Below are positions 13,146 through 32,466 of a stretch of 64,000 nucleotides of DNA, one piece after another (positions within the stretch are counted from its first letter, which is position 1; every line of letters starts with the position of its first letter). Source of the stretch: Sideroxydans sp. Its GTDB lineage: Bacteria; Pseudomonadota; Gammaproteobacteria; Burkholderiales; Gallionellaceae. The stretch spans positions 1 to 64,000 of the forward strand of contig DAIDAG010000078.1 of NCBI GenBank assembly GCA_027310725.1, in the 5' to 3' direction. The notes under the pieces were generated by a model. The model had not been told where the DNA came from. It ran no database searches and was given only the letters and a program-made list of their open reading frames with translations. A program made the position numbers and the translations under genes.

Positions 13146-13286
13146 CTACCAATTATGAAAAATTGCCGCCAGCGGCTTCGACGGCAAGGATCCGGGCACA
13201 GCGATCGGCGCATACGGCAGCCGTATCTGAGCACCGTACACACCGTCCGATCCTGCCACGAAGTCCCGCAACAGAGAGTAAGTCAC
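13146..13286 (-). CDS. Possible 46-residue small protein
   Basis: A GTG at 13286, five bases after a strong AGGAGG, opens a 46-codon frame beginning MTYSLLRDFVAGSDGVYGAQ. It has no signal peptide or transmembrane segment and no family I recognise. It follows the cytochrome c gene by 32 bp on the same strand, so it would be the last gene of the multicopper oxidase operon. Short length and a GTG start make this a weak call, supported mainly by the ribosome-binding site. Confidence 0.3.
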   Translation of the reverse strand: MTYSLLRDFVAGSDGVYGAQIRLPYAPIAVPGSLPSKPLAAIFHNW

Positions 13287-13318: not shown

Positions 13319-14992
13319 TCACGGCACAAGCCAGTTGGAGTCCGCAACCAAACGACCATCCTTGGGATCGGCGAAATGAACGACATAGCCACCTTTGGAT
13401 GCAAATCGCTGGCCCGGCGCAAGCGACAGGTGCGGGTAATATCCGGTAATAATTCGGTGGGCGAGCATGTCCTGGACACGCTCGACGAGATAAACCGGTA
13501 CAAAAGTATCGGCCATGTCACTCAGCGTCTCCGCAAGCAGGCCGCAGGCAAGGAACGTATCCGCCTGCACCTGCTCGTCCACGACCGGAATGTGCCGGAT
13601 TGCGAACCAGCCGAGAGCATAGTCGACAGGGACAATCCGCTTTTCCGGCAAATCGAACGGGTATGCAAGACGCGTGCGGCTGCGCCAACTCGACGGTAGT
13701 GGCGAATACTCGAGCCCCCCCATCAATCCCGACATGAAGACCGCAGCGGGCGAGGCCGGCGCGTTACCGAGAGCAGCCACATCGGGCGGCCGCAACCACA
13801 GGACGAGCACATTTGCGCCTGAAGCCTTGCGCAACACCTTGGTGACACCCCGCCCTGATGCGCCCTGCGCAAGAACATGGGTATGCACGGTAACGCCATG
13901 GGATTCAAGTGCAGTGCTGAGTGCCTCGGCGGCCGGCTCGCCACTCTCGCCGGCGCGATAGATCTGGTGCACCACCTTGCCGTTACCTGATTCCAGAATA
14001 CTGTTCGCTATCAGCTGCGCTTCCAGCAGCACTCCCCTGGAAAAATACAAGGAATAAAAATCCCGGTCAGCATTGATTGGTGGCACCTCGACGTTCGGAA
14101 ATAGACAAGGCACGTCCTCGTGCTCACAAAAGGCGTGGACCGGCTCCCAGTTCTTGCCACCCAGACCAGATACCACCGCCAGTACCGGCTCCTTGGCAAA
14201 ATCCTGCTTCAGTTGTTCCTCCCATGTGTTCGCCGGACCGGTCAGTTCCCACACGTGCAGTTGCCAGCGGCGATTGACCATGAACATCGTGTTCGCCCAC
14301 GCTGTCTTGGTGGAGGTGCGCAGGCGCGGTGACGGAGCGAACTGAACCGCGTTCCTGTCGGCAAAATAGCGCTCGATCACATCGAGCATGCCGCGACGTT
14401 TAACGGGATCGGCATCCGGCGTGATGATGGTGGCAAAATTCAGTACCGTGTCCGTGACACCGGGTGTCTTCCGCTGGTCCAGACTTTTCAGATAAGCGAT
14501 GAGCGCCGCCATATCTGCGTCGTTCAGCTCGAATTGTGGCATCAGATAGCTAAGCGGCTTTCCTGCAGCGTCTACACCTTCGCGGATCGCTCTGGCGAGG
14601 GTCTCATCGGTATATGAAGGATCGTGACCAACATGCATCGTTTCGACATACGGCAAGGATTGATCTCCGGTACCGCGGTCATTACGGCGCAAGAGATACG
14701 CACCGGTGATCGGCGGTATGGGGATACTGCCCTCTCTGACGCCGAAACCACTGCGCCTGTGGCAGTTGACGCATGCTGCGTCCGCACCCTCCATGCGAAT
14801 TCCGCCCTCGCGGTACGCCACGAGCGGTGCACCCGAGTCCAGAATGCCGCGCCTGTAGATTGCCTCACCCGCACTCGAGTCGGCATGTGCATAGCCCATC
14901 GGGTAGACCAACGCAGCAATCACGAGAATCGCGGCGCTTGCGCAAATTGATGCGGCTACACGCAAAAACCCGAAATTGCGACTGATATTCAT
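13319..14992 (-). CDS. c-type cytochrome fused to periplasmic binding protein-like domain
   Basis: This 557-residue exported protein has an N-terminal signal (MNISRNFGFLRVAASICASA...AHA). A cytochrome c domain follows, with one heme motif CVNCHRRSGFGVREG near residue 75 and a candidate methionine ligand in LSYLMPQFELNDADM near 150. From about residue 175 on it resembles a type I periplasmic ligand-binding (ABC amino-acid receptor-like) domain, for example VLAVVSGLGGKNWEPVHAFC. Cytochrome plus binding-protein fusions are known, but ligands are unclear. The gene lies 16 bp after a LolA-like gene, in the operon of the two multicopper-oxidase-like proteins. It could accept electrons from them in the periplasm; that role is inference. 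Confidence 0.85.
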   Translation of the reverse strand: MNISRNFGFLRVAASICASAAILVIAALVYPMGYAHADSSAGEAIYRRGILDSGAPLVAYREGGIRMEGADAACVNCHRRSGFGVREGSIPIPPITGAYLLRRNDRGTGDQSLPYVETMHVGHDPSYTDETLARAIREGVDAAGKPLSYLMPQFELNDADMAALIAYLKSLDQRKTPGVTDTVLNFATIITPDADPVKRRGMLDVIERYFADRNAVQFAPSPRLRTSTKTAWANTMFMVNRRWQLHVWELTGPANTWEEQLKQDFAKEPVLAVVSGLGGKNWEPVHAFCEHEDVPCLFPNVEVPPINADRDFYSLYFSRGVLLEAQLIANSILESGNGKVVHQIYRAGESGEPAAEALSTALESHGVTVHTHVLAQGASGRGVTKVLRKASGANVLVLWLRPPDVAALGNAPASPAAVFMSGLMGGLEYSPLPSSWRSRTRLAYPFDLPEKRIVPVDYALGWFAIRHIPVVDEQVQADTFLACGLLAETLSDMADTFVPVYLVERVQDMLAHRIITGYYPHLSLAPGQRFASKGGYVVHFADPKDGRLVADSNWLVP

Positions 14993-15008
14993 AACCAGGG
15001 GATGCGCA

Positions 15009-15905
15009 CTAGTGGGTCGCCCCGGAACCGGGCACGGATTGAGGTCTCAACCGCGGCATCTCCGCAGGCATGGATAACGCCGAACCGGCAGCCTGACGGA
15101 CCGCCCCAGGCGAGCTGATGCCGGCTGCAGCCATGCTATGCCTTCCCGGCACACCGGGTAGGGCGAACATCCGATCTTCCAGTGGCAGATTCAGTGAGAC
15201 TTTATCTATCACCAGTTTTTCCGTAGCCTTGCCTGTGTCCGCGCCGCTTTCGATCATGAGCGGTATCTGTAGGCCCTCAATCGTCTGGTAGTTGCGGTAA
15301 TACACCGCCACCGCGCCCGGCTGGCCAAATTTGTTGCGGGACATGCGATCGTATTTGATGTCCAGGAATGTCTTAGCGTCGACCCATACATGGTGGCTGT
15401 TGCCAGAGGGCAATTTGACGCTCAAGCGATATGCCTTGCGCCCTTCAACCTCGTCAACGCCGTCCAGTGCAACCGCAATGCCCTTGGCTCGATAATCCAT
15501 GAGCGGCCCGTCGATGATCTGCCCATCACGCGCGAATCTCAACTCATCGGGCGTATACGGCTGCACGTCAGGCCTGCCGCTGCCCGACGGACGCACCTTC
15601 CAGCCATGAGCCCCGTCATACATGCGCACAGATGTCTGGCCTTGCACTTTGACCTCAAAGCGCGTTTTATTGGGACGCTTCATTTCGAGGGCAAACGGCA
15701 ATCTAGGCTCTGGAGCATTTGCTCCTTCGATGTGCCCTATCCACGCCATGGACTGAATCTTCCGCCACGCATCCAGACCGCCTCTTGCGGCAATATTCTT
15801 CTCGACAATCTGGGTCGCTGACAGTCCCTGATCATTTACAGGTTCAATGGCCACCGCAAGACCCGAAAAGCCCAACGCCAATGCCCATGTTATGACCCCT
15901 CTCAT
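15009..15905 (-). CDS. LolA-like exported protein (paralogue 2)
   Basis: This protein of about 298 residues has a signal peptide (MRGVITWALALGFSGLAVA). The beta-rich body resembles the LolA/LolB-type outer membrane lipoprotein-sorting fold: motifs include IAARGGLDAWRKIQSMAW, VRMYDGAHGWKVRPSG and GPLMDYRAKGIAVAL. It is a clear paralogue of the gene at 15911-16708. The ATG at 15905 is preferred because AGGTGA lies 6 bases upstream; a GTG at 15914 overlaps the previous stop. It has a proline- and alanine-rich C-terminal tail of about 40 residues absent from its paralogue. It may chaperone hydrophobic proteins or lipoproteins across the periplasm; the substrate is unknown. Confidence 0.8.
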   Translation of the reverse strand: MRGVITWALALGFSGLAVAIEPVNDQGLSATQIVEKNIAARGGLDAWRKIQSMAWIGHIEGANAPEPRLPFALEMKRPNKTRFEVKVQGQTSVRMYDGAHGWKVRPSGSGRPDVQPYTPDELRFARDGQIIDGPLMDYRAKGIAVALDGVDEVEGRKAYRLSVKLPSGNSHHVWVDAKTFLDIKYDRMSRNKFGQPGAVAVYYRNYQTIEGLQIPLMIESGADTGKATEKLVIDKVSLNLPLEDRMFALPGVPGRHSMAAAGISSPGAVRQAAGSALSMPAEMPRLRPQSVPGSGATH

Positions 15906-15910
15906 ATCAT

Positions 15911-16708
15911 TCACCTAGTCTGCTGCATGGATGCGTTGGCCACTACCAACTGGGGTTTCGCGAACAACGCATTCTCCATCGCCTGATTGATCGCCACATG
16001 CTCAATGTGCATCTTGTATGGATGTTTTCCCCCATCGACCACGGTTTCCAGGATGTGCGGCATGGTCAGTCCGTTCTCTTTGTTGTACTCGCGGTAAAAA
16101 ATGGCGACATCACGGAGTTTGCCGTCCAGCATTCTGGGTTCGCCATCGATTTTCAGTTCCAAGAAACTCGCCGCATCGATCCACACATGCCGTTCTACGC
16201 CGTTATCCATGGTCAACTCGAGTTTGTAAGCGCGGTGTCCTTCCACTGATTCCGTGCCCTGCAACTTTACCTTGATTCCTTTTTTGGCATAATCAACCAG
16301 CGGACCGTCCAATTCCTGCCAGTCCAACGCTGCGTTTTTCTCGCCAGCTGTAAATGGCTCGACTTCATTGCGCCCAAGAAATGGCCGGACCTTCCAGCCT
16401 TGGACGCCGTCATATACCTGCACGGCTGTTTGATTCTGGAAGAGAATTTCCAAGCGGCTCATGTGCGCTCTCTTCATTTTGAGTACGAACGGCAGTTCCG
16501 GATTTTTTTCACTGCCAGCTTCCAATTTGCCGGTCATCGTCAAAGTCTTGGCGGCTCGCCAAGCCTTAAGCCCTCCGCGGGCATCGACGTTTATGGCAAT
16601 GATCTGGGCCGCGGTCAGCTTGCCCGCAGGTGCGATGTGGCTCTTGGATACCTCAGCCGATGCCGTGAGTGAAACCAGACAACATGCCAAGCAGAGAAAT
16701 CGTCTCAT
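15911..16708 (-). CDS. LolA-like exported protein (paralogue 1)
   Basis: This protein of about 265 residues has a signal peptide (MRRFLCLACCLVSLTASA). The same fold and motifs as its neighbour are present: VDARGGLKAWRAAKTLTM, VQVYDGVQGWKVRPF and GPLVDYAKKGIKVKL. The ATG at 16708 is favoured by GGGGA about 8 bases upstream; an earlier in-frame ATG at 16723 would put extra residues before the signal. Genes of this type occur next to exported oxidases, so assistance in envelope targeting is plausible but not shown. The stop overlaps the start region of paralogue 2. Confidence 0.8.
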   Translation of the reverse strand: MRRFLCLACCLVSLTASAEVSKSHIAPAGKLTAAQIIAINVDARGGLKAWRAAKTLTMTGKLEAGSEKNPELPFVLKMKRAHMSRLEILFQNQTAVQVYDGVQGWKVRPFLGRNEVEPFTAGEKNAALDWQELDGPLVDYAKKGIKVKLQGTESVEGHRAYKLELTMDNGVERHVWIDAASFLELKIDGEPRMLDGKLRDVAIFYREYNKENGLTMPHILETVVDGGKHPYKMHIEHVAINQAMENALFAKPQLVVANASMQQTR

Positions 16709-16783
16709 GTTTGCATCCCCCATTTAATAAATACGCACCAAAATTTGCGTTCATGCCAGCCACGAACCGACGGAAGGAAAACC

Positions 16784-17302
16784 CTACTCCACCACCAGTC
16801 CGTCAGCTCGAAATTGTCCAATCAACACACTAACGCGGTCTCCGCGCTTCACTAACCTGCCCTGGTTCGAAAAAGCCATCCAGTAGGATTTGCCAGCCTC
16901 CGGCGGGGCGCTCTGGCGCAATTGTCCGACCTGTTCCAGCGACGGGACCACCAGACTTACCCGTGCCTGCGGGTCGATCAAAGCAGGCTCGGCCTTCTTG
17001 TCGTTGAGTTCTTTGGCTTTGTCTGCATCCAACACGCGCCAGCTAAAACGGATGATCTCGCCCGATTCCACCCTCTTGATGCGCAACGAGTCAACTCCCC
17101 AAATGCCTCCGAAATACATACTGGCTCGTTTTGGCAACCGATTCGGCAGATAGTGGGTTGGAGCTGCGACGGCAGACGCCGTCATGGCCGGGGCAGGAGA
17201 TTTTTCTGCCTGAGCCGACTGCGCACGGGCGGTGGAAACGAAGAGGCCGCTGGCGAGAGACATCCCGATAATCAATGTGCGTGATACAGAGTATTTGAAC
17301 AT
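16784..17302 (-). CDS. Exported protein of unknown function
   Basis: This 172-residue protein has a signal peptide (MFKYSVSRTLIIGMSLASGLF...ARA). The mature region carries SMYFGGIWGVDSLRIKRVES, then IIRFSWRVLDADKAKEL, and near the end GKSYWMAFSNQGRLVKRGD. It looks like a beta-rich periplasmic domain. I do not recognise a named family. The start at 17302 follows GGAGG at about 11 bases. Its place inside the multicopper oxidase operon suggests an envelope accessory role; nothing more can be read from it. Confidence 0.75.
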   Translation of the reverse strand: MFKYSVSRTLIIGMSLASGLFVSTARAQSAQAEKSPAPAMTASAVAAPTHYLPNRLPKRASMYFGGIWGVDSLRIKRVESGEIIRFSWRVLDADKAKELNDKKAEPALIDPQARVSLVVPSLEQVGQLRQSAPPEAGKSYWMAFSNQGRLVKRGDRVSVLIGQFRADGLVVE

Positions 17303-17373
17303 AACCGCGCAAACCTCCGAGTTAGACGAGTTTGACCAGGCTGGGGCGAATCTGGCGTCCATCCCGGATTCGC

Positions 17374-17763
17374 CTACCTGACACTGATAATAGTTTCCTG
17401 GGTGGCGGTTTTTCCCCCAGTATCTGCCAGCGTCACGCGTGCCGTCGATATCTCGGTATCCAACGGCGTGTATCGCACACCAATCGCACACGTTCCCCCT
17501 TTACCGGCGACCACCAGCGTTTTTGCACAGGGGGTTCCCGTGGCCGGCGCCACGATCGCAAAGCTACCGGAACCTGAGATTCTGGTGACTTCAGGATCCG
17601 CTGTGATCGTGAGAGGCCCGTAGCCGCGATTGGTCACTGTGATCACGCCGGTCTTTACAGTCAATTTTGCCGAACCATTCGCGGCCACGGCGCCGCATGT
17701 TGTGGTGGCGGCAAGTACGGAGAGCAAAACAAGAAGCATCAGTTTGCGGGAAAACTTAAACAT
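17374..17763 (-). CDS. Small exported Ig-like (HYDIN/ASH-type) protein
   Basis: This 129-residue protein has a signal peptide (MFKFSRKLMLLVLLSVLAATTTCGAVA). The body matches the pattern of short choice-of-anchor/HYDIN-like Ig domains: LTVKTGVITVTNRGYGPLTI, a central CAKTL...GGTCAIGVRYTPLD segment with two cysteines, then ARVTLADTGG. AAGGAG lies 7 bases before the ATG at 17763. The gene follows the 2876-residue protein by 24 bp. It could be a structural partner or surface anchor for that protein; this is inference. Confidence 0.75.
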   Translation of the reverse strand: MFKFSRKLMLLVLLSVLAATTTCGAVAANGSAKLTVKTGVITVTNRGYGPLTITADPEVTRISGSGSFAIVAPATGTPCAKTLVVAGKGGTCAIGVRYTPLDTEISTARVTLADTGGKTATQETIISVR

Positions 17764-17787
17764 GATTATCTCCTTAAGTTCCAATTG

Positions 17788-20700
17788 CTACGGTGCCTGA
17801 TTGAACACAGGTGGCACGTTGAAGACCACACTTGCCTGAGCAAACTCGACCGCACCAACGTCGAAATGTGTCAGGTTTGTAGGATCGGGCCGCGGATTTC
17901 CGAAGAAGTCCGTGGGCGGGTGTGCCTGCCCTACAGGCACGTAATCAATAGCCGGGGAAGTCGACACCAGCGTGTAGTCGCCGAGAGGCAAGCCGCCGCC
18001 ATAATTTCCATCCGTACCCAAGGTCGTCGGGTTAGTTGTCGTCAGCGGACCCCACCGCAGGTTGACCCAGTTGTTGCCCTCGTCCACCGTCGCTACCGGG
18101 GTCAGGTTGAAGATGGGATTGGGCACGGTTGCATCGGAAATTCCTGGAGGCACCGCCCAACCAGATGCCCCGGATTCAGGAGGAATCCGCGCACCATCGC
18201 AGTACTGAGTAACGAAAGCAGGGTTCGACGCGGTGTTGTGCTGCGAAGATCCGCTATAGCCGGCAATGCTGGTCAGTACCGACCATGTCGGGTTAAGCGT
18301 AAAGCCTGAACCCGAATTCGGTGTAGCACTGGTGTCGCCGCGCACGCCGATGTCCCAATAACTGGCCGGGACGCAGGCACCGGTTGCCGTCTGAGTCGCT
18401 GGCTGTGTTCCGGTAAACGCGTTGAACAACGTCACCACGGCCTGCTGGTATTGCGTACTGAACGGGGCCACACCGACATAGTACGCACTGTTCTGCCAGA
18501 ACACGTTATTGGCCAGCACCGGATACGAGATACTCTTGCATGTCCCGTTCCTGGCGGCCGTACCGGGTGCATAGTTGCCGTCCGGACATATGATCGGGGT
18601 CGCAGTGGGAAGCTGATTCATATTCGCTGCCAAAACCGCGCTGTTCTGGATGCTCACCAGGCCGGCAGGCTCAGGCAGCGAAGTATTTCCGCAGTTAGCC
18701 GAGTTGACGCAATTGTTGGTGGTGTTCTGGGTACTGGCCAGTGGTGCCCCCAAAGTGTTGAACAGCGTTCCCGACGTCGCCGTGGTCGAGTTGGAAGCGA
18801 TCGTGTTGTTGGTGATATTCATCTTCAACGCATCCAGCAGCGACATCCCGGCTCCATCCCAGCCCGCGACGTTGTTGACGATGATGTTGTTGGTGACGCT
18901 CACCCCGTACCATTGCCCCGGCCTGTTCGGGAAAGCAAGCACCTCGGCACCGTTGACGTTCTGGAAGGCGATGCCGCCGCCGCTGCCGCTTTCCGCAGCG
19001 TTACCCATGATCAGGTTCCCATTGATCTTCAATCCGGGGCCAATACCATCGCTGGGGCCGATCGAGCCGGGAGCGGACACGCAATCCTGGTCGGTCGTTG
19101 CACCGCAGGTGGGATCCACGTCCGGAGCTCCCATGACGACGATGCCGCCACCGTTGGTCGGGATCGTCGGATTGGTGCTCTGATTGAACACGATCACGTT
19201 GTGCTCGATTTCACCGTTCTTGCTGAATCCGACGTGGCCCACGCCGCCGCCGTCCCCGCTGCTCAGGTTGCCGCATATCCAGTTGTAGTTGAACTTGTAG
19301 TAGTCGGCGCCGGTGCAGAAAGTGACACCGCCTGCCCCCGCCGGCGTCGCCGAGAACAGTTCGTCGCCGGTGGATGAATTCAGCGTGACCGCGTTGTGGT
19401 GCACGTTCACGTTCAAGTTATGGCAGTACGGCAGTTGAACACCCGTAACCTCACTGCTCTCGCAGGAACCCGGGGCCAGGTTCGCGGCGCCCTGGCTGTA
19501 AGAAGGCGGATATTCACCCTGACCGATGTTGATACCACCCGAGAGCGTTCCGGAATTGGCGGTGATCCGGTTGTTCGCGATTTGAATGTTATGTCCCCAG
19601 GCGTGCACGAATACCGCTCCGCCACCCTGCGAACTCTCGGTGATGCCCATGCCGTCGATTGCGGATGGGTTGCACTGGAAGTTGCTTGGATACGGATTGC
19701 TTCCGCCCGAACCAGTTGTGCAGTCGGCGTTTGTAAGCAGCGTGGTGCCGGTCGGGAATGCGGCTTCGCCGGCGTTGAGCTGGAACGGATCCTGTCCGGC
19801 AGGGAAATTCACGCCCTTGGCCAAGATGGTGATGCCGGCTCCTTCAAGAGCGCCCATCAGCGACGGCTCTTGCAGCATCTCGGCAAGGTTGCCGTTCAGC
19901 GTGGCATCCCAACCAATGGTTGCCTCGGTCGGTATCCGGTCCACCTGGAACTGCATGGTCGCCGAGCACGTATATGTCCCGGAAGAATCGTAAGGATGCG
20001 CTCCCGAGATGGGCCAGCCGTCGAGCGTCAGTCCAAACAGGCAATTGACCTGCCGGCGCCATGGGTCCAGCTTGCCCGCAGGCTGCGTGGTCGCGTTGAT
20101 GACGCTCGATGCGGCTCCGACACCTTGCAACCGGACCGGCTTCCACATCAGCAACATCTCGTTGTACGTACCGGCAGGAACGATAATCAGGTCGCCCGGA
20201 GCCGCGGCGTCAATGGCCTGTTGAATCGAACCTGGGCCATTTTGCGTCAGCGGGTTGTTAGTCGCCAGGCGTGTCGGGGCCTTTCCGCCGATCGTCACGG
20301 TCACGGTGTCGATCGACTCCTTGCCGTTTGCGGCCGTGATGACCAATTGACCGCACCTCGCGGTCGAACCGCCGTATTGCACCTGCTGCTGGACGGCGCA
20401 TTCCGCCACACCCTTAGGCACCGTACCGGTAATGGTCGAATCGCTCCAGCTCACACTCGTGAGCGGATGAGAGACGCCATGTTTATCTATCAGAGCGACG
20501 GTACCTGGGGTATTGCCGAAGCCGAAGTGCCGGTTGACGGTCTTCTGGTTGTAGGGAGCAGTCGTCGCCGACGGCCCGTTGTAGGCGTTGTTTGGTACCT
20601 GCTGGTCGCCCAGAGCCGTGATCGTCAGCTTGTGGCCCGCGGCACTCACCCATGGTCCGATGCCGTCGCCGTCGACTTCCTTGACTGCCGGTGTGGCATC

Positions 20701-23700: not shown

Positions 23701-26418
23701 ACTTCCCAGACCCGGCTCCTGCGGTGACAGCACGTCGACCCCGCCTCCGCCATCCTGCTCGCCGTTCAGCGGAAAGTCATCCTCGAACACGAGTACGGAA
23801 AGTTTGCCCGGCTGGAATGGCGCTGGCTGCGCCAGTATCGTGACCGGCGGAATACAGGTCGTTGCGCCCGCTGCCGGCGTGCATGTGGCTCCGGTGAGCG
23901 GCGCTACACAGGTCGTCGTCGTGCCGGACGTCTGGCAGTTTGCTCCGATTGGAGCACCGCCCATGCCGTGGCCACAATGACCGGCGGCCATTCCGGCCTT
24001 GGAGCAATCCGGTGTCCCCGTGTATCCTGCACCAAACGGATTGGCCGCGTCACCCGGCAGGATTGAGATGTAGTAGCGCTTGGTCGGATCAAGGGCAACC
24101 TGGCTGGGAAGGACCGGCGTCATTCCGTTCCCCGTCGGATCTGGCCGGCAAACGCCATTGCTGATGTCGCAGACCGTATTCACGTGAGATCCCGTCGTCG
24201 GATCGATAACGGTCTGGCCTGCTTCACAGGAGAGCGGGCCTGTACAGCCCTGCGCCACGAAGGGCATGTAGCTGGTGTGGAAATTGACTCCCAAGGTAGG
24301 AACGATGCCGCTCCCCGCACTCGGGCATCCTGCCGGCGGCGGGTTGGTCGTGCACGACGGATCGATGTAGAAAGTCCGGTCTTCCTCGATCACCCAGCGA
24401 TAGTCGGTGATTTGAGTCTTCTTGTCGCCACCGTCCAGAACTGTGACACCCAAGCCGCTCCCGGCGGGGAAGACGACCGTCACGGTCGTGGCCGCACTAA
24501 GCGTTCCCTGGGAGTTCTGCGCCTGGTACGTGAACGTATAGGTGCCCGGCCCTGGGGCGACTGCCGTGAACCCGCCGTTTCCATCCGGAAGAACCGTCAT
24601 CCCGGCAGCTGCAACCGTCGACGTGTTGACTGTAAGTGGATAGCCAGCGGCGTCTTTGCAACCTGCCAGGACGCCCGGGGTCTTGACGGCCAGATATGTG
24701 GCCGTGCTCGCGTTGTACGTGGTCGCAGTACAGGTGATGCCGGAAGCACTCTCGATTGTCGCAGCAGCCAGACTGACGGTAGCGGTTATACCGGATGAAC
24801 AAGCCCCCGCCACAACGGTACCGTTCGCGCAGTAGGTAAAGGAATCCGTGGTGGCTGTCCCTGTGGGCACATACGTGAATGTGCCATTCGCGGCAAGAGT
24901 CAAAGTACCATTGACAGGCGCAACGAGGAGTTGAACGCCATAGACATTGGTATCGTTGGCGATCACACCCTTGGACGGATCCGACACGCTGAGTGTCTGG
25001 GCCGCAACCAGGGAGTTGTAGGTATCCGGTCTGGCAACCGCCGCGCCGAGCGAACCTGCAGCTGGGAGCCCGGTGCCATTGACACTAATGTAAGCCAGCA
25101 TGCCGGCATCGCGCTCGATCGCATTACCCGAAAGGCTCAATTCGCGGTCATACACCGGAAGTGCTGTGCCGCCGGCAGGGGGTACATTGATCATCACATC
25201 GTAGGTCTTGCCGGCGGCCATGAATACGTCGCTTTGCACCTTGGGAAGACCGGGCAGCCGGTTGCCGTCTTCCGCGATCAGCGAAAACCCCGAGGCCGGC
25301 GGTACTGGAGGAACGGCTGTCGGATTGCCACCCGTCAGCGAGCCTACGATCGACGGCACATGCATGCGCAAGCCTGCATTCACCATGCGCACCAGAACGT
25401 TTCCGGTGACGGGGGCGGCGGTCGTGCCCGGCAAAGCCGGGAACAGCGAAATCGCGGCATTAGTCTTGTTAAATGCGACGCCGTTGATCATGTAATAGAG
25501 CGGCGTATAGTTCACCGCCGGGGGATAGCAGGTATTTGCGATCCCGACGCCTGAGTTGGGATTTCCGCAGCCACCGGGCTGGCCAGACCATACCTTGGTC
25601 TCACTGAAACCCGCAGTGCTAACAGCGGTTTGGACGGCGCCGTTCTGGACAGGATCGATTTCGCTGAAGAGCAGCGGGACTTCAGCGTTGTAGGTTACGG
25701 CGGGCGTAGTCCCTGCTAACGGATATGCCGTGCCTGCAGTCGCTCCGACGGGCGCGGTGGTGACCACCAGGATTCCATACAGACCCATGGGACCCTGTAT
25801 CGACGGGTGTGTACCGGACTCAATCAGGTAGGTGCCCGGCCGCAAGTTGCTCCAGGTGAGCGTACATCCGGAGGCGCACTCTCCGGTGGTCGGGGTCGCT
25901 CCGGTCGCGGCTACTTCCATGCCGAACGATTGCACGCGGGGTCCTTGCGGCGGGGGCGTAAAGGTCGCGCTACCACCCGCGATCGGCCAAGTCGTGCCCA
26001 CCTGCGGGGCGTGTGTCGCAACCGGACCGTATTGGGGCGTTCCGAGACCTCCGCCCAACTGGCCAACGATCACCAGCGAGGTAGGCACGGTGTTAGGAGT
26101 CGTGCTGCCTGTCGGCGTGAACGAGAGATTATTCGTCAGGTTGATCGTCAGAGGTTGTCCTGTGGGAACGCTAATCACGACGGGGGACCAACCGCCGGCA
26201 CCCGCGCTGTTATTCAACGCTGCGCAGGTCGCAGTCTCGCCGGTCACGACCGTGCCGCAGCTGTAGCCCCACATCGGGATCGTTGAGCCATCGGGCAGGT
26301 TTGCGATGGCCGGCCCCGCAGTCAGATTGAGCGCGAATGACGCTCCACTCGCCAGTAGGAAAACGGACAGTGCTGTCGCTGCTGCGAGCTTATTCAGCTT
26401 GAGTATGTTGTCTCTCAT
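17788..26418 (-). CDS. Giant exported multidomain protein with degenerate cupredoxin domains
   Basis: This 2876-residue protein (about 290 kDa) has a signal peptide (MRDNILKLNKLAAATALSVF...SFA). Residues 30-450 resemble the cupredoxin domains of the neighbouring multicopper oxidases (GPMGLYGILVV; LIAEDGNRLPGLPKVQSD) but lack their HxH copper motifs. Then come a bacterial cadherin-like repeat (about 460-550), an Ig-like region to about 650, and a HCGHGMGG segment near 814-821. SdrD B/carboxypeptidase-regulatory-like repeats extend to about 1900. An IPT/TIG-like domain lies near 1950-2050. A right-handed beta-helix from about 2060 to 2800 (SIQQAIDAAAPGDLIIVPAG, then many N-N-x-I repeats) and a DFFGNPRPDPTNLTHFDVGA end follow. 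It starts 17 bp after an oxidase gene and has GAGGAG upstream. It probably forms an extracellular scaffold; catalysis is doubtful. Confidence 0.85.
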   Translation of the reverse strand: MRDNILKLNKLAAATALSVFLLASGASFALNLTAGPAIANLPDGSTIPMWGYSCGTVVTGETATCAALNNSAGAGGWSPVVISVPTGQPLTINLTNNLSFTPTGSTTPNTVPTSLVIVGQLGGGLGTPQYGPVATHAPQVGTTWPIAGGSATFTPPPQGPRVQSFGMEVAATGATPTTGECASGCTLTWSNLRPGTYLIESGTHPSIQGPMGLYGILVVTTAPVGATAGTAYPLAGTTPAVTYNAEVPLLFSEIDPVQNGAVQTAVSTAGFSETKVWSGQPGGCGNPNSGVGIANTCYPPAVNYTPLYYMINGVAFNKTNAAISLFPALPGTTAAPVTGNVLVRMVNAGLRMHVPSIVGSLTGGNPTAVPPVPPASGFSLIAEDGNRLPGLPKVQSDVFMAAGKTYDVMINVPPAGGTALPVYDRELSLSGNAIERDAGMLAYISVNGTGLPAAGSLGAAVARPDTYNSLVAAQTLSVSDPSKGVIANDTNVYGVQLLVAPVNGTLTLAANGTFTYVPTGTATTDSFTYCANGTVVAGACSSGITATVSLAAATIESASGITCTATTYNASTATYLAVKTPGVLAGCKDAAGYPLTVNTSTVAAAGMTVLPDGNGGFTAVAPGPGTYTFTYQAQNSQGTLSAATTVTVVFPAGSGLGVTVLDGGDKKTQITDYRWVIEEDRTFYIDPSCTTNPPPAGCPSAGSGIVPTLGVNFHTSYMPFVAQGCTGPLSCEAGQTVIDPTTGSHVNTVCDISNGVCRPDPTGNGMTPVLPSQVALDPTKRYYISILPGDAANPFGAGYTGTPDCSKAGMAAGHCGHGMGGAPIGANCQTSGTTTTCVAPLTGATCTPAAGATTCIPPVTILAQPAPFQPGKLSVLVFEDDFPLNGEQDGGGGVDVLSPQEPGLGSFQIHLWDAMAGNGDFTGQMTYDMFNQPLTNSLDGTMDPNTGLNACPITKLGQGITGMIVTCPKYESDGKTLSPLAGQAVINNLMPGRFGVVATPGADRIARGEEWLQTNTLDGQKAHDAFIRIGEPSYFQEFGPAGYHVSIGFANPKIISSRLKEVCAGTDPSAPQYPAAANCGNTLKGTITGQRLSRTPDERLYESGSRDTYYWTQCYVSVGDPDGEDFAFAKCDAKGNFTLTGLPDGDWRITTFDQWNDQLVDGLSTPVRLGSATSVCPGSGSSQHVCNMGNIASTQWQTNLYTRTFIDDNRDGLSQSTEAGIPFANVAVRLRDGSLENLLVTDFTGTANFNETFPLFSWYTVETDVTRYKNTGTHVVYDVGGPADQTLTTCGGSVPGAGYPPCGTSVIGKNLANTVEQVSLPANLRLPGAVYCAGADCAGKTIQTPVSDPPSVCTTTNGATTCSTQLSSGRIDPPWLGGVEGWQGFPGQNNFLEFGKEPYVAGENGGIKGHVVYASTRPFDDPQMLVQTQWEPLVPHVTINLYQEGVASDGITPTLTLVDHTQTSSFDDWAQGFHADANGNMVPNMNCPGQGGAPGTPGGTALADLFFFSLYNQPEYLDFYNSQHGGAALTALPYNSQFKCYDGMHNWNQLQPAPYDGMYKFPSVTSTDPATGKPNGTNCTICSPDPVAAPDLYAGIPMLPPGKYVVEVVVPPGFELVKEEDKNILIGDNYIAPVTQQFGGLGNIFILPDQASVGAAYNANNAQNPTQGLGTKPNNQIVPGFVPEPTWPCVGEARIVPDYISLFPGSKEVAPFAGATRRLCDRKEVTLNDQMGAIAKFYVFTSTHIASKFTGGITDDYTSEFDPFSPQFGEKFAPPDLPVSVRDWAGNETNRVYADHWGAYNGMTYSTWEVNPPNPTGYAPTMMVFCMNDLGPTADIRSTIVNSAGTVVPNPNFGKIGTDPLFTQGYSQFCYELPFMPGTTQYLDTPVVPTSAFAGAGYNNADCAYPDATPAVKEVDGDGIGPWVSAAGHKLTITALGDQQVPNNAYNGPSATTAPYNQKTVNRHFGFGNTPGTVALIDKHGVSHPLTSVSWSDSTITGTVPKGVAECAVQQQVQYGGSTARCGQLVITAANGKESIDTVTVTIGGKAPTRLATNNPLTQNGPGSIQQAIDAAAPGDLIIVPAGTYNEMLLMWKPVRLQGVGAASSVINATTQPAGKLDPWRRQVNCLFGLTLDGWPISGAHPYDSSGTYTCSATMQFQVDRIPTEATIGWDATLNGNLAEMLQEPSLMGALEGAGITILAKGVNFPAGQDPFQLNAGEAAFPTGTTLLTNADCTTGSGGSNPYPSNFQCNPSAIDGMGITESSQGGGAVFVHAWGHNIQIANNRITANSGTLSGGINIGQGEYPPSYSQGAANLAPGSCESSEVTGVQLPYCHNLNVNVHHNAVTLNSSTGDELFSATPAGAGGVTFCTGADYYKFNYNWICGNLSSGDGGGVGHVGFSKNGEIEHNVIVFNQSTNPTIPTNGGGIVVMGAPDVDPTCGATTDQDCVSAPGSIGPSDGIGPGLKINGNLIMGNAAESGSGGGIAFQNVNGAEVLAFPNRPGQWYGVSVTNNIIVNNVAGWDGAGMSLLDALKMNITNNTIASNSTTATSGTLFNTLGAPLASTQNTTNNCVNSANCGNTSLPEPAGLVSIQNSAVLAANMNQLPTATPIICPDGNYAPGTAARNGTCKSISYPVLANNVFWQNSAYYVGVAPFSTQYQQAVVTLFNAFTGTQPATQTATGACVPASYWDIGVRGDTSATPNSGSGFTLNPTWSVLTSIAGYSGSSQHNTASNPAFVTQYCDGARIPPESGASGWAVPPGISDATVPNPIFNLTPVATVDEGNNWVNLRWGPLTTTNPTTLGTDGNYGGGLPLGDYTLVSTSPAIDYVPVGQAHPPTDFFGNPRPDPTNLTHFDVGAVEFAQASVVFNVPPVFNQAP

Positions 26419-26435
26419 TGCAGTTCTCCTCTTTC

Positions 26436-28040
26436 CTAATTAGATTCGTCGATCACGAATTCACGGGAATCGATCAGCATCATCATCAGCATTCCGCCGG
26501 GGAAGACATTGTTGGTAGTGATCTCGCGCTCGTTGTGCGAGTGCCACATGAACGCAAAGCCGCGCTCGTTGGATGGATTGGCCTGAATATTCGAGGGCTG
26601 AAAAACACCGGTGGGACCGGTCGCGCGGGAGGTCGCATCCGGACCCAGATAGGGACTGCCGCTGTACCAGGCGCCGTTCGTCAGGATGTTCGGATCAGGA
26701 AGAGTGGCGGGGCCACCGCTAGCGACATCCCCGAACGGAGCAACCTGCAGCGGCTTGTTGTGATCCTGGCACCATTCGAAATAGTTGACTGCGGTCGGAT
26801 CTCCAGTGTTGTAGCCATTGGCATCCGGAGTGCAGGTGAGCAAAGCGAGCGGATCAGCGGAACCCGGATTGTGGCCGTACATATCCCAGTTCAATCCTCT
26901 CCCGGTGTAGTAGAAAATTCCATCGAAAGCCTGCCCCGGCGTGGTGTCGGTTGTGAACATCAGCATTCCCGCAAGCTGGGTGGCGCCGGTCGAATCGGGC
27001 GGAGTCAGTATGAGGTTCCCGTCGCGCCCGAGGATGCGCACATGATTCGCATGCTCGTGGAATGGATGCTGCCAACGCCCCTGGCCAATAACGCGGATCA
27101 GCGTTTGCTCCCCCGGATGCATGTGAGGATTGCCGTTGTAGGGCTGGTGCGGATATTCGGGCGCGAAGTTGGCGTCCATGTCATCCGGCATGGAGCGCCC
27201 GTTGATCAGGAAGTACGCCGGGTGGTAAGGCTCGGTCGGAACCTCAAGACTGCATGCAGGAGTTCCCGCGGTGCAGCCAGCCAATGCTGTGACCTGCGCC
27301 AAAGCCTGGTTGTGTATGTTGGGATCCATCTCCGCGAACTGGAACAGGTACTCCCTGTCGTAGCACGTTTTGGGGTGGTCGTAAGCGGACTTAGACAGCC
27401 TGAAATCAGACTCATGATGAGCCGCTTCCGCCGAGAGGTTCTTCGCCGCGTAGCCTGTCGTACAAGCGGTGGGGATGCTGGCCGGGAGTACGATGATTGC
27501 GCCATACAGGCCCATCTCGACCTGGAGATCACCCTGCGTTCCGCTGTAGTAGGCGCGAGTTCCCGGCGACGAGGCTGTAAACGTGTAGGTCACGGATCCG
27601 CCGGGGGGAGCCTCGCACGTCAACAATCCTTGCTGACCTGCAGGGCAGGTGGACGTCAGTTGGAATCCAGGAAACAGAATGGAGGTGTTGCCGACTGCAG
27701 CGGGGAGATTATTCGTCAGGTTGACCGTTACCGTCTGCCCTTCCGTGACGATCAGCGTGGGGCCTGGAACCTGCATCGTGGGGCAATTAGCGCCCGGCAT
27801 CAAGCTTGCGGGAGGATTGAAGCCGCCAGGCGTGTGTGCCGAGTCGCAGCCGTAGCCCCAGGCGTAAACCGCTGCTCCATCAGGCTGATTGAGATTGGCC
27901 GTTTTCGCGGTCAGATAGAAGGTCGGACCTGTTATGCCCGGAGCCGCCGCGTACGCAGTACTTGCAAGCAATGCGCTTAGGCACGCCACGGCAGCCACCA
28001 GGAGGCGCCCGAATAAGGTCTCTGCATAAAGTTGGCACAT
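26436..28040 (-). CDS. Multicopper oxidase-like protein 2 (C-terminal copper motifs only)
   Basis: This 534-residue exported protein has a signal sequence ending near AYA at residues 29-31. The C-terminal cupredoxin has HPFHEHANH at 325-333 and FMWHSHNEREITTNN at 498-510, the places of the third and fourth copper motifs of multicopper oxidases. The type 1 cysteine is serine (HSH instead of HCH). The N-terminal domain has SILFPG and YYSGTQ where HxH motifs are expected, so it is degenerate. The gene begins 10 bp after the stop of protein 1, with its AGGAG site overlapping that stop (TAGGAG), so translation is coupled. It may supply half a trinuclear copper site together with protein 1. Large secreted oxidases of this kind are linked to Mn(II) oxidation in some bacteria, but no substrate is shown here. 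Confidence 0.85.
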   Translation of the reverse strand: MCQLYAETLFGRLLVAAVACLSALLASTAYAAAPGITGPTFYLTAKTANLNQPDGAAVYAWGYGCDSAHTPGGFNPPASLMPGANCPTMQVPGPTLIVTEGQTVTVNLTNNLPAAVGNTSILFPGFQLTSTCPAGQQGLLTCEAPPGGSVTYTFTASSPGTRAYYSGTQGDLQVEMGLYGAIIVLPASIPTACTTGYAAKNLSAEAAHHESDFRLSKSAYDHPKTCYDREYLFQFAEMDPNIHNQALAQVTALAGCTAGTPACSLEVPTEPYHPAYFLINGRSMPDDMDANFAPEYPHQPYNGNPHMHPGEQTLIRVIGQGRWQHPFHEHANHVRILGRDGNLILTPPDSTGATQLAGMLMFTTDTTPGQAFDGIFYYTGRGLNWDMYGHNPGSADPLALLTCTPDANGYNTGDPTAVNYFEWCQDHNKPLQVAPFGDVASGGPATLPDPNILTNGAWYSGSPYLGPDATSRATGPTGVFQPSNIQANPSNERGFAFMWHSHNEREITTNNVFPGGMLMMMLIDSREFVIDESN

Positions 28041-28050
28041 GGCTGATCTC

Positions 28051-29916
28051 CTAGTTGATATGGACCTCAGTCATCAGCCCGCCAAAGTTCTCGGCGTCGT
28101 TTGACAGGTGGTCGAGGTTGGAGGTGTATAGGTAGTACGTGCCCTTGGGAATGCCGGTACTATCCAGAATCACGTCGAGGGATTCGCCCCCCCCCAGGGT
28201 GATCGAATTGGTCGTGTAGTACATATTGTTGCCGGCCTGGTCACGCAACAGCTTGGCGTTGAACCCGATGACCTTCATCGGAATCCCCATTGAAGCCAGC
28301 GTTTGATACTCCGAGACGTCCAGGTCTGAAATGCGCAGAAGCGCCTTCCCGCCTGCCGGTATGTTGATGATGGCAGGCAGCGGCTGCGAGTAATGCATTC
28401 TGCCATCCGCCGCCTGCGTCGCCAGCGCGCCGGGCGTGACGGTGTCGGGATAGCTGCGCCCGTTGAGCAGGAAATACTTGTCCTTCATGTCGACAAACGC
28501 TTCCGGGTTGAAGGTCATGCCGACGAAGTGGAAGTTCGGGTCGAAGCCGTGTATCTGGATCGGGTACTCGACGTCGTAGTAGGTGGAGCCGTCGCCATCG
28601 TTATAGGCGTACCCGCTGGTCCCGCCACTCCCGATGGTTGCGGCGGCGGTCGCCCCCGTGTTGACGGCCGGCAAGGGATTGCTGCACAGGATGTCGGAAG
28701 CGGTATTGCAGGCAGTACGCAGGTCGTTCTGCTGAGTCTGGAGCGCTGCATAGAGGCTGGTGCCGGCGGGAACCCGATCCTGGCGCGGACGTACATATAT
28801 TTGCCCGACCATGCCCATCTGCAAGTGTTCGGGCGGTGTGATGTGGCAGTGCCAGAAGTAGGTGCCGGCGTCAGGTGCAAGGTAGTAATAGGTGAAGCTG
28901 CCGCCGATATTGATGGCGACCGAAGCGTCAGGCACGCCATCGTAGAACGCGGAGGCATTGGGATACCCGTGGAAGTGGACGGTATGCTGCTCGAAAAGGT
29001 CTGGGCGCATGATCATCCCGACGTTGGAAAGCGTGAGGAAGAACTCGTCATCCTCGTCGATCGCCATCAAGGGCGCCGGAATATTGCCGTTCATCACGCC
29101 GACATCCATGATCTGGCGCGGATCCACGTGACCATCGATTCTCGGTGGAGTTGATGCGGTGCCGACGGTCAGGGCAGTCGCCGCAGCCAGCCCAGTGACC
29201 GAATTGGTATACGTGAAGGAATAGCTGGGCGGAAAGCCGGTTCCCTGAGCACCCCCGACGCTGGTGACCGTGAAGGTACCGTTGTAGCCGGCCGGACTGA
29301 TGTTTGCGATGACAACCTGGTCGCCGACATTCACGCCCAACGGCGCGTTCGGGGTCACCGTCACCGTGCTCCCGGCCTCGCTGATGCTGTAGATGTTGAC
29401 GGTGTTCGCAATATCCAGAGCCAGTCCGACGGCGCCGTTATACGTGAATCCTGCAGTCGGAAGGGGAAACCCGGGCCACGTATTGGCTGCAATTCCGTCG
29501 CTCGCTGCCGGATCGCCGGGCTGGAACGTGCCTGCGTACATCGTGTTGAACGCACTGGGGAAGTCAGTACCGGGCTGCCCGTTCGCAATTGCCGCGAGTC
29601 CGGAGAGCGGCCCGAACGAGAACATGAACGTCTGAGTGCCGTCAGCCATTGTCGCGTAGCCATCGCCTCCAGAGATCTGTTGACACTTGATCGCACCGTT
29701 TACATTTGCAGATGGCACGAGATAACCATTGTTGCCGGGCGCAAATGTCGTCGGACTGACGTAGGCAGGTTCGGCATCGTTATTGTTGAGCGCCAACGGG
29801 TGCGTAATCGTGTTGTTTGGACATTGAACCCGGAACGATGTGGCGCCCGCCGTCCCCGCCAAGACGCTCAATAACAATGCCGGCAACAGCCGAACAAAGC
29901 AGGAAAAGTTCAGCAT
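28051..29916 (-). CDS. Multicopper oxidase-like protein 1 (N-terminal copper motifs only)
   Basis: This 621-residue exported protein (signal MLNFSCFVRLLPALLLSVLA...GA) is the first gene of the operon. It has HTVHFHGYPN at 311-320 and GTYFWHCHITPPEHLQMGM at 351-369, giving one HxH pair, an HCH with the type 1 cysteine (357), a further histidine (364) and methionine ligands. The C-terminal cupredoxin has lost its motifs (ASMGIPMKVIGFN; YLYTSNLDHLS). Residues of about 170-255 form an extra Ig-like insertion (VGDQVVIANISPAGYNGTF). AGGAGG lies 7 bases before the ATG at 29916. It may pair with protein 2 to make one complete oxidase. Confidence 0.85.
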   Translation of the reverse strand: MLNFSCFVRLLPALLLSVLAGTAGATSFRVQCPNNTITHPLALNNNDAEPAYVSPTTFAPGNNGYLVPSANVNGAIKCQQISGGDGYATMADGTQTFMFSFGPLSGLAAIANGQPGTDFPSAFNTMYAGTFQPGDPAASDGIAANTWPGFPLPTAGFTYNGAVGLALDIANTVNIYSISEAGSTVTVTPNAPLGVNVGDQVVIANISPAGYNGTFTVTSVGGAQGTGFPPSYSFTYTNSVTGLAAATALTVGTASTPPRIDGHVDPRQIMDVGVMNGNIPAPLMAIDEDDEFFLTLSNVGMIMRPDLFEQHTVHFHGYPNASAFYDGVPDASVAINIGGSFTYYYLAPDAGTYFWHCHITPPEHLQMGMVGQIYVRPRQDRVPAGTSLYAALQTQQNDLRTACNTASDILCSNPLPAVNTGATAAATIGSGGTSGYAYNDGDGSTYYDVEYPIQIHGFDPNFHFVGMTFNPEAFVDMKDKYFLLNGRSYPDTVTPGALATQAADGRMHYSQPLPAIINIPAGGKALLRISDLDVSEYQTLASMGIPMKVIGFNAKLLRDQAGNNMYYTTNSITLGGGESLDVILDSTGIPKGTYYLYTSNLDHLSNDAENFGGLMTEVHIN

Positions 29917-30486: not shown

Positions 30487-31134
30487 TCAATAAGCGATTT
30501 CCGGATGCCTCACCTCCTTGAAGACATCCATATCTCCCAAGCCGCGCAACAGTTCATCAGACTTGGCAAACCCGTCAATCCGCAGCCAGGACTTTCCCGG
30601 AGCGGCACGAATGAAGGTAACAGGATTATGTTCCATCTTGTCCCCGCGGTAGACTTCGAATGCGCGCTGTGCCGCGATACTCGCATCGATTGTGCCTGTA
30701 TAGAATTGCCACTGCGGGCCGGCGCCGAATTTGTGGGCGTATTTGGCAAGCACCTCTGGCGTATCCTGCTCCGGGTCTATCGAGATCGAAACCATGTGCA
30801 CGCGATCACGCTCGGTCCCGAGCTTATCCTGCAATTCAGCGAATATCTTGGTGGTTAAAGGGCAGATTTCGGTGCAGGTGGTGTACATGAAGTTCAATAC
30901 CAATGGACGGCCATCATTCAATTCTTCGATTAGGGAGACATTCTTGCCATCCTCGCGTACCAGCTGTATCTGCGGTAATTTGTAATCCACAATTTGATGT
31001 TTCGTTTGTTCCATCACCATATGATGATGAGCGTGCATACTGCCGACATCCTCAAGCTCCGCCCCGGGAATTGAGGTACTGAAACCTAAGACAGCAAGCG
31101 CGATTAGTGCTAAGGGTTTGGTGGAAGTTTTCAT
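30487..31134 (-). CDS. SCO1/SenC family copper chaperone
   Basis: This 215-residue exported thioredoxin-fold protein has a signal MKTSTKPLALIALAVLGFST. The copper-binding CxxxC is in YTTCTEICPLTTK near residue 85, and the expected histidine is in MEHNPVTF near 170. SCO proteins deliver copper to cuproenzymes such as cytochrome oxidase CuA in the periplasm. A histidine-rich stretch (HAHHHMVMEQ) just after the signal may bind copper as well. The gene lies 59 bp after the response regulator gene and about 570 bp before the multicopper oxidase genes, all on one strand. Supplying copper to those oxidases is a reasonable inference. No cytochrome oxidase gene is in the window. Confidence 0.88.
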   Translation of the reverse strand: MKTSTKPLALIALAVLGFSTSIPGAELEDVGSMHAHHHMVMEQTKHQIVDYKLPQIQLVREDGKNVSLIEELNDGRPLVLNFMYTTCTEICPLTTKIFAELQDKLGTERDRVHMVSISIDPEQDTPEVLAKYAHKFGAGPQWQFYTGTIDASIAAQRAFEVYRGDKMEHNPVTFIRAAPGKSWLRIDGFAKSDELLRGLGDMDVFKEVRHPEIAY

Positions 31135-31881: not shown

Positions 31882-32433
31882 TTATGGTTTGAGAAGTTTT
31901 ACCGGCGTGCCTGGAGGATTCGTCACTGCAGGTGCCGGGACAAATCTTGCTGAAATTATGAATACCCAATCCGAATATTTCATTTGTCCCTCGAAACCTT
32001 GATCGGCAAAACTGAAATTGCTTTTCTTCACCGGCTCATCTTCCGATGCGCTATGCACACCAAAAATTTCACCATTCGGTCCTTTGACCAATTCCCAATT
32101 GGTGCTATTGGTTATCGGGTCAAGATAAATCTTCCTTAAATATCGTTTCGTAGCCGGATAACGCGGGTCTTTCAGCAAATCTTCCAGACTCATCGGGTAA
32201 CGTACCGACTGACCGGGGGTACGGTAGTAGTACATGGTGATGGCGTTGCGGAATTGGTTGCCGACAAAGAGAAGTTCCTCTTCTTTTTCCCGCTTCATTG
32301 TCATATGCCATACCTCGCCGACCGCAGCGAGTCCTATGCCCATAACGGCGATAAAAATGAGCAGCGCAATATAGGTGAAGCCCTGTTCATCACCCGGCTT
32401 TTTCTGCGCCATGGATATCGACCTGACTTTCAT
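31882..32433 (-). CDS. Minor pseudopilin lacking Glu5
   Basis: This 183-residue protein has a type IV prepilin-like N-terminus, QGFTYIALLIFIAVMGIG, but the usual glutamate at position +5 is alanine. In type II secretion systems the GspK-type tip pseudopilin also lacks Glu5. A hydrophobic helix of about 20 residues is followed by a soluble domain containing MYYYRTPGQSVRYPMSLEDL. It is last of the three pseudopilin genes downstream of the secretin. ATG at 32433 follows AAAGGAAAGC; an ATG at 32412 is an alternative. Confidence 0.8.
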   Translation of the reverse strand: MKVRSISMAQKKPGDEQGFTYIALLIFIAVMGIGLAAVGEVWHMTMKREKEEELLFVGNQFRNAITMYYYRTPGQSVRYPMSLEDLLKDPRYPATKRYLRKIYLDPITNSTNWELVKGPNGEIFGVHSASEDEPVKKSNFSFADQGFEGQMKYSDWVFIISARFVPAPAVTNPPGTPVKLLKP

Positions 32434-32466
32434 CCTGCTTTCCTTTGCCGTACTGGCAACATTTTT

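Follow-up and report, generated by a model that had tools for sequence, protein, structure and literature searches.

The closest described relative of the gene cluster reported here is that of Sideroxydans lithotrophicus ES-1, in which He et al. (2017, PMC5566968) noted three tandem multicopper oxidase (MCO) genes clustered with a mofC-like and a copper-chaperone gene, and in which the cupredoxin cluster Slit_1812–1818, of the same make-up, has been called uncharacterised and proposed as one that may oxidise solid iron minerals (Keffer et al., 2025, PMC12016527). The latter authors pointed to comparable clusters in Paraburkholderia, Ralstonia, Anaeromyxobacter and Steroidobacteraceae and described Slit_1816 as lacking canonical MCO motifs and carrying adhesin- and lyase-like domains. 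Our locus is an eight-gene operon on the minus strand of a 64,000-nucleotide stretch of a Sideroxydans sp. genome (Gallionellaceae; contig DAIDAG010000078.1, hereafter the window), and it encodes two oxidase-like chains (MCO1 and MCO2) and a giant protein that begins with a third such unit (MCO3). We propose that one copper site is divided between the first two chains, and we consider it probable that several chains of the operon assemble into one secreted multicopper oxidase.

Two other kinds of system bear comparison. OmpB of Geobacter and MofABC of Leptothrix, likened here by description rather than by direct sequence comparison of OmpB, MofA and MofC, share with the window a large secreted multicopper oxidase, a MofC-like cytochrome and SCO1 (He et al., 2017). 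MofA has its four copper motifs on one chain (PMC8218464), whereas in the window the motifs are distributed over MCO1 and MCO2, with none in the MCO3 unit of the giant, and no mofB-type isomerase was matched among the cluster proteins scanned by Pfam. MnxEFG of Bacillus, reportedly the subject of work by Romano in 2017, is a multimeric Mn-oxidising copper enzyme, and the likeness is again one of description and not of sequence. For the Gallionellaceae pangenome, no more than a few BLAST hits to genes of Mn oxidases have been mentioned (PMC10734462). Two-domain oxidases, finally, assemble as trimers, each trinuclear cluster being shared by domain 1 of one protomer and domain 2 of its neighbour, and in type C it is the N-terminal domain that holds the type 1 copper (PMC6854816; PMC13151041).

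The operon is transcribed in the order MCO1, MCO2, giant, two small exported proteins (the second termed SM2), two LolA_like proteins and a cytochrome c, with gaps between the most likely starts and the preceding genes of 10, 17, 24, 71, 60, −4 (an overlap) and 16 bases, and signal-like N-terminal segments are visible by eye in all eight proteins. An earlier note on this DNA had proposed eight exported proteins encoded head to tail at 13319–29916; the open reading frame (ORF) list of the window bears out these coordinates. Because other genomes hold the same genes in the same order, the arrangement goes beyond chance, and the loss of linkage that the note had named as a refutation is not seen. 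The window's cluster belongs with that of ES-1, sharing with it a cytochrome, SCO1, small proteins, a giant with adhesin- and polysaccharide-lyase-like domains and two proteins with MCO motifs, but it has SCO1 at the opposite end (in front of MCO1), two LolA_like genes and an extra small protein. Genome G029 of our comparison set, which we take to be ES-1 itself, matches the window over best segments at 64% identity for MCO1 (390 columns), 54% for MCO2, 40% for the giant and 54% for the cytochrome. Its gene order is that printed for Slit_1812–1818 (Keffer et al., 2025). The same note had held that the gene set does not match the operons of MofA and MnxG; the set does differ from mofABC, but its MofC-like cytochrome architecture and SCO1 are common to the mof and ompB clusters, and the ES-1 cluster with its three tandem MCO genes was already in print. 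The cluster, part of its spread and its link to solid Fe(II) are thus known (He et al., 2017; Keffer et al., 2025). Four points are added here: that the site is split, that MCO3 is a subunit, that secretion genes adjoin the cluster and that it is widespread in Acidobacteriota. We saw neither a split site nor a third oxidase unit as subunit in PMC12016527, whose main text contains no occurrence of 'type II secretion' or 'secretin', and our searches of the open PubMed Central literature gave none of the first three points for this cluster, nor any split or heteromeric multicopper oxidase.

The evidence for a divided site lies in the copper ligands. Domain 1 of MCO1 carries the four type 1 ligands (H311, C357, H364, M369) together with four of the eight trinuclear histidines (H314, H316, H356, H358), and its domain 2 (about residues 434–621) has no copper ligands; these roles were assigned from alignment to 3g5w and general family knowledge. 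In MCO2 every ligand of domain 1 has been lost, while domain 2 retains H328, H330, H500 and H502, as well as H325, and has Ser501 at the position expected for the type 1 cysteine. Combined, the two chains supply four type 1 ligands and eight cluster histidines. All eight MCO1 ligands, and all five MCO2 histidines, are invariant in eight of eight sequences, the window's included. To these we added a scan of one genome per species in 84,980 species, which gave 459 related loci (tblastn, E ≤ 1e-3); locus statistics throughout cover the best 80 of the 459, and the other 379 may include ordinary copper oxidases. In this larger set the MCO1 ligands are conserved in 80 of 80 sequences at seven positions and in 79 of 80 at H316, and the five MCO2 histidines in all 72 sequences (of 76) that cover the sites. 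Motif counts agree: 77 of 80 MCO1 sequences have a single HxxHxH and a single HCH motif (two HxxHxH in two, none in one); all 69 MCO2 sequences counted have a single HxxHxH and lack the HCH motif, seven of the 76 being too short and left out; and neither HxxHxH nor HCH..H..M occurs in 69 of 69 MCO3 sequences. From these counts a canonical site is seen in neither MCO1 nor MCO2 alone.

Placement on known folds gives the same picture. The profiles of MCO1 and MCO2 both rank 3g5w (Nitrosomonas europaea) and 2zwn (mgLAC) first, two structures that we take to be of type C. The HTVHFHG and HCH..H..M motifs of MCO1 align to their domain 1 ligands, and HPFHxH and HSH of MCO2 to their domain 2, domain 1 of MCO2 being ligand-free; the opposite domains (MCO1 domain 2, MCO2 domain 1) also align yet are emptied of ligands, the domain 2 alignments being weak. 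The window's units thus resemble type C enzymes in that MCO1 has its type 1 ligands in the N-terminal cupredoxin domain, and in that 3g5w is the best match for MCO1 in the PDB, for the MCO2 profile and for the MCO3 model (a single-sequence PDB search with MCO2 puts ascorbate oxidase first). They differ in that type C chains hold both half-sites and form homotrimers, whereas here two genes supply one half each and the third unit supplies none. As a control we took 13 other oxidase loci of relatives, of which L010, L013 and L019 were not counted (wrong frame): six ordinary two-domain oxidases (L011, L012, L014–L017) hold both trinuclear halves on one chain, which MCO1 and MCO2 do not, and four chains (L018, L020–L022) are longer with another layout.

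We judge it very likely, from these conserved ligand patterns, that MCO1 and MCO2 share a single active site. That they are two independent, complete oxidases we reject, as either chain is without half the ligands; the earlier description of two oxidase-like proteins was right as to kind, but each holds half a copper set, and the giant starts with a third unit. The incomplete set on each chain could also mean that no site is shared: MCO1 would then carry electrons by its type 1 copper, MCO2 would be a copper protein of a structural or type-2-like kind, and each would form a homo-oligomer of its own. Proteins with fewer coppers are indeed found among nitrite-reductase-like and cupredoxin proteins. 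Neither role, however, needs the four domain 1 trinuclear histidines kept in MCO1 (79 of 80) or the four domain 2 histidines kept in MCO2 (72 of 72 covered), and the MCO1 and MCO2 genes are strictly linked; we regard separate proteins as quite improbable. Still further down we place a copper-resistance oxidase of the PcoA/CopA/CueO type. Weak NCBIfam matches to copper_res_A and ascorbate oxidase, and a copper chaperone next door, speak for such a role, but the scores of 38–39 bits lie far under the copper_res_A cut-off of 479, an exported giant with secretion genes is unlike a periplasmic Cu(I) oxidase, and no copper efflux family was found among the Pfam-scanned cluster proteins. On these scores the role was rejected.

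The third unit occupies about residues 1–450 of the giant: a two-domain, oxidase-like unit without copper ligands, which resembles MCO2 in sequence and in three relatives is encoded as a separate protein adjoining MCO2. Behind it come stretches that resemble Big_9/cadherin and SdrD_B domains and, at the C-terminus, a region in which a short segment is NosD-like; searched against PDB sequences, the giant gave no match at E ≤ 0.01. A structure model of residues 1–450 (mean predicted local distance difference test score, pLDDT, 73; predicted TM-score, pTM, 0.77) gives 3g5w as the top match among solved structures (E 1.1e-12; TM-score 0.62 by target, 0.45 by query; root-mean-square deviation 8.2 Å), the large deviation leaving the packing of its two domains uncertain.

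MCO1 and MCO2 are homologous to each other and to the N-terminal unit of the giant, and we suggest that these three paralogous two-domain units replace the type C homotrimer. In such a ring a trinuclear cluster would form where domain 1 of one unit meets domain 2 of its neighbour. Since ligands are kept only in MCO1 domain 1 and MCO2 domain 2, exactly one active site is expected, and the presence of a third, ligand-free unit on the giant makes a heterotrimer with a single active site at the MCO1/MCO2 interface likely. In the order MCO1–MCO2–MCO3, the four emptied domains would be those facing the two dead interfaces. Electrons of an external donor would enter at the type 1 copper of MCO1, and O2 would be reduced to water at the trinuclear site; MCO3 would close the ring and tether the enzyme to the Ig/SdrD/beta-helix-like body of the giant, whose probable role is to attach to a surface such as mineral, matrix or polymer. 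We lean towards MCO3 as part of the ring, and by a narrower measure towards the full account of a naturally split oxidase, an obligate heterotrimer whose dead third unit is fused to a giant adhesin and which is secreted, copper-loaded, onto solid substrates.

The gene order on which this rests is widely kept. Among 100 genomes searched for MCO1, the window's own included, 42 gave some match and seven besides the window's have true orthologues (E 1.2e-51 or lower): G024, G048, G013, G029, G093, G022 and G011. MCO1–MCO2–giant order is found in five genomes (the window's, G000, with G024, G048, G013 and G029), behind which each has SM2 and either one LolA_like gene or two, SCO1 and a cytochrome also being part of the cluster. 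In G093, G022 and G011 the order MCO1–MCO2–MCO3 is kept with MCO3 as a separate protein of 635–642 residues; a separate giant stands in front of MCO1 in G093 (1678 residues) and G011 (1745 residues), the G022 contig terminates within MCO1, and no LolA_like match was seen in these three. Across the 80 loci, MCO2 follows MCO1 on the same strand in 76 and MCO3 comes next in 71, that is, in every locus that continues; the four loci without MCO2 and the five without MCO3 have at most 42 bases remaining. The middle part of the giant was found in 62 loci. Nine have MCO3 without it, eight of them with at most 588 bases left; the ninth, L095, continues for 7.4 kb. On this acidobacterial contig MCO1–MCO2–MCO3 is followed directly by SM2 and a LolA_like gene, and the body of the giant is missing. 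By record title the 80 loci comprise 48 from Acidobacteriota, 12 from Gammaproteobacteria, six from Burkholderiaceae and 14 others, so the system extends beyond known metal oxidisers. In Paraburkholderia largidicola the MCO1, MCO2, giant and small genes are annotated as 'hypothetical protein', and the cytochrome as an 'ABC transporter substrate-binding protein'.

Within the window's own lineage the cluster is patchy. The MCO2 profile matches at E < 1e-200 in eight of 158 genomes of the family and at E ≤ 1e-10 in 33, the best match of the other 25 being 2.5e-18 or weaker; it matches in three of 399 sampled genomes of the order and in one of 398 of the phylum (the window's own), with only the first three candidates per genome scored in these two samples. 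An old family trait inherited by all is rejected on this distribution. A 78-row tree of MCO2 puts the window and G024 within a set of acidobacterial and proteobacterial copies (99/82), apart both from G029/G013/G048 and from G011/G022/G093, which suggests transfer without proving it. Behind the operon, at 7660–11517, lie two genes that we take to be glycogen branching enzyme-like and glucose-6-phosphate isomerase-like, and the same two adjoin the operon in G024, G013 (on the other side) and G029, although the MCO2 tree splits those genomes.

The cluster is larger than the eight genes with which the earlier note ended it, since same-strand genes in front of MCO1 (SCO1/SenC, a LuxR-type regulator and a type II secretion set) reach back to about 43803 (Table 1). 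Three secretion families were matched there by Pfam (T2SSE, Secretin and N_methyl), and the GspF-, GspG- and PilM/N/O/P-like genes were recognised by eye only. N_methyl (PF07963) was matched in 32870–33358, with no Pfam match for 31885–32433; two of the PilM/N/O/P-like genes were scanned by Pfam and neither matched. The C-terminal cohesin domain of the secretin is PF00963 (2.3e-13). The ATPase, secretin and pseudopilin precede MCO1, on its own strand, in 11 loci, the window included, out of the 58 with at least 8.5 kb of sequence there, and G728 has the entire window layout. Type II secretion moves folded proteins, and OmpB of Geobacter is said, in work by Mehta from 2006, to be exported in this way, through the atypical Oxp system. 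In proteobacterial clusters SCO1 would probably provide periplasmic copper and the adjacent type II system would probably export the assembled enzyme; for the window itself we hold export by the neighbouring secretion system to be likely.

Table 1. Features of the operon and of the genes in front of it (window coordinates).
Feature	Position	Strand	Basis
MCO1, 621 residues, two-domain cupredoxin oxidase subunit	28051..29916	-	Pfam, alignment
MCO2, 534 residues, two-domain oxidase subunit	26436..28040	-	Pfam, alignment
Giant, 2876 residues, MCO3 unit and multidomain body	17788..26418	-	Pfam, model of N-terminus
Small exported protein 1, choice-of-anchor-D-like (below cut-off)	17374..17763 (ORF listed from 17784)	-	
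Small exported protein 2 (SM2), without Pfam match	16784..17302 (ORF listed from 17491)	-	
LolA_like protein 1 (PF17131, below cut-off)	15911..16723	-	
LolA_like protein 2, without Pfam match of its own	15009..15914	-	
Mono-haem (CVNCH) cytochrome c, long C-terminal part	13319..14992	-	Pfam
Terminator-like hairpin and T-run 3' of the cytochrome gene	13163..13187	-	
SCO1/SenC copper chaperone	30487..31134	-	PF02630, 1.8e-23
LuxR-type response regulator	31194..31853	-	Pfam scan
Pseudopilin-like genes (31882-32433, 32867-33358), 140-residue frame between	31882..33358	-	
Type II secretin with C-terminal cohesin domain	33355..35715	-	Pfam
Inner-membrane assembly genes, PilM/N/O/P-like	35684..38291	-	Length, position, recall
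Type II secretion ATPase, GspE-like	38242..39942	-	PF00437, 6.2e-124
GspF-like membrane protein; GspG-like major pseudopilin	39939..41129; 41178..41648	-	By eye
Sensor kinase-like; response regulator-like	41645..42682; 43159..43803	-	By eye

The terminator listed behind the cytochrome gene is a weak candidate, because the 16 terminator-like sites of the region are no more than the shuffle mean of 17.6.

The two LolA_like proteins share 43% identity over 223 residues, and the earlier note's naming of them as LolA paralogues fails: LolA (PF03548) matches neither, its sole match in the window's genome being on another contig (C65), and of the two only one matches PF17131, below the cut-off, as does the Paraburkholderia relative of LolA_like protein 1 (1.2e-6). 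The cytochrome family has Cytochrom_C in eight of eight members and Peripla_BP_6 in four, the window's protein giving the cytochrome match only and its binding domain coming from alignment with relatives; this joining of cytochrome c to a periplasmic-binding domain resembles the published description of MofC-like proteins, as in the MofA/OmpB systems. Against PDB sequences the cytochrome had no match at E ≤ 1. Tandem or neighbouring cytochrome genes also occur, as a pair of frames behind the giant at L141 (genome G713) and as two adjacent matches in G109.

This cytochrome closes the operon, and full-length relatives of it occur in nine of the 15 oxidase-bearing genomes tested, all nine proteobacterial by title; together with the abundance of the ES-1 proteins on magnetite (Keffer et al., 2025), these facts would suit a conduit in which the copper oxidases pass outside electrons to a periplasmic cytochrome c for energy gain. 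The earlier note had suggested such a path, from an external donor to the periplasm; as the core of the system it is not supported. None of the six acidobacterial genomes among the 15 has a full-length cytochrome match (G106 has a partial match, E 9.7e-4), and behind nine acidobacterial giants from these six genomes we found SM2 in eight stretches and LolA_like in four but neither cytochrome nor SCO1 in any, the stretch at L132 ending after 3.3 kb; CXXCH-bearing frames do lie behind the giants of L130, L133 and L135. Moreover, a complete trinuclear site implies O2 as acceptor, by which the path would be short-circuited, no porin was matched among the Pfam-scanned cluster proteins, and no listed cluster frame has more than one CXXCH. 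We therefore consider the conduit improbable. As cytochrome and SCO1 are missing from the acidobacterial stretches examined, the core of the system is MCO1–MCO2–giant–SM2, to which cytochrome, SCO1 and secretion genes are probable proteobacterial additions.

What the split enzyme would oxidise is less certain. In the Gallionellaceae the most likely donor would be solid Fe(II), although as the main donor we put it forward tentatively, at somewhat under an even chance. Slit_1812–1818 were commoner on late magnetite than on Fe(II)-citrate, and the percentiles of Slit_1816, 1817 and 1818 are 13.7–15.3, 0 and 0 on Fe(II)-citrate and 79.3, 74.8 and 29.5 on late fresh magnetite (Keffer et al., 2025, Table 1). 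The metal-oxidation link drawn by the earlier note is backed by these published proteomic data, in which an iron oxidiser of the Gallionellaceae has more of the proteins on solid Fe(II), but the system also occurs outside the known metal oxidisers. Acidobacteriota and Burkholderiaceae, to which 48 and six of the 80 loci belong by record title, are known mainly as soil heterotrophs. Such a distribution, along with the adhesin-type repeats of the giant and the five MCO2 copies of one acidobacterium (G105), would fit a laccase-like enzyme that has phenolic or humic polymers, or Mn(II), as its substrate, with iron incidental. The only expression data that we found in print, however, concern solid Fe(II), and the annotated Paraburkholderia locus has no obvious aromatic-degradation pathway, an arylsulfatase and several oxidoreductases lying further off; a laccase-like role thus seems to us unlikely, if less so than the other alternatives weighed here. 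The copies in G105 (locus L064, acidobacterium AB60) are MCO2-profile matches at E ≤ 1e-60.

Several observations weigh against a split, secreted, iron-directed enzyme, or against parts of it. On the site itself, one of 80 MCO1 sequences carries Ser at H316 and two have a second HxxHxH, unplaced on the fold; Keffer et al. (2025), moreover, ascribe canonical MCO motifs to Slit_1817 and Slit_1818, and we saw no split inferred there. On the assembly, both fold models are of single chains, and that of MCO2 is poor (mean pLDDT 59, domain 2 mostly below 50; best fold matches nitrite reductases); the stoichiometry could differ, with an MCO1–MCO2 pair or with MCO3 outside the ring. On export, the full secretion set is missing in front of 47 of the 58 loci with at least 8.5 kb there, acidobacterial loci show only remote secretin matches (27–30% identity), and three megaplasmids of Paraburkholderia have a pseudopilin gene behind the operon, adjoining SCO1 and a regulator. 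On the substrate, the wide occurrence outside known iron oxidisers makes an iron-only role less likely, and Slit_1816–1818 reached percentiles of only 0–33 in early magnetite cultures (Keffer et al., 2025), so that growth state may matter for the rise seen in ES-1.

Elsewhere in the window, four plus-strand genes at 54732–60600 (421, 224, 927 and 392 residues) are perhaps a diverged Wadjet-like set: the third matches JetC (5.8e-21) and the fourth JetD (6.7e-15), with no PADLOC match at E ≤ 0.001 for the first two. A c-di-GMP-I riboswitch (47158–47246, plus strand, 71.3 bits) precedes a frame at 47433–48248 that by eye encodes a lipoprotein-like protein of 271 residues.

If the proposed split is correct, it would give a testable structure to an uncharacterised cluster that has been put forward for the oxidation of solid iron minerals, and MCO1 or MCO2 produced singly would be inactive, joint production being needed for activity. 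As a hetero-oligomer, the enzyme would be a natural intermediate in the evolution of copper oxidases, between two-domain enzymes that form homotrimers and single chains of six domains such as ceruloplasmin, and many uncharacterised copies of it would exist, above all in the Acidobacteriota, which account for 48 of the 80 loci inspected.

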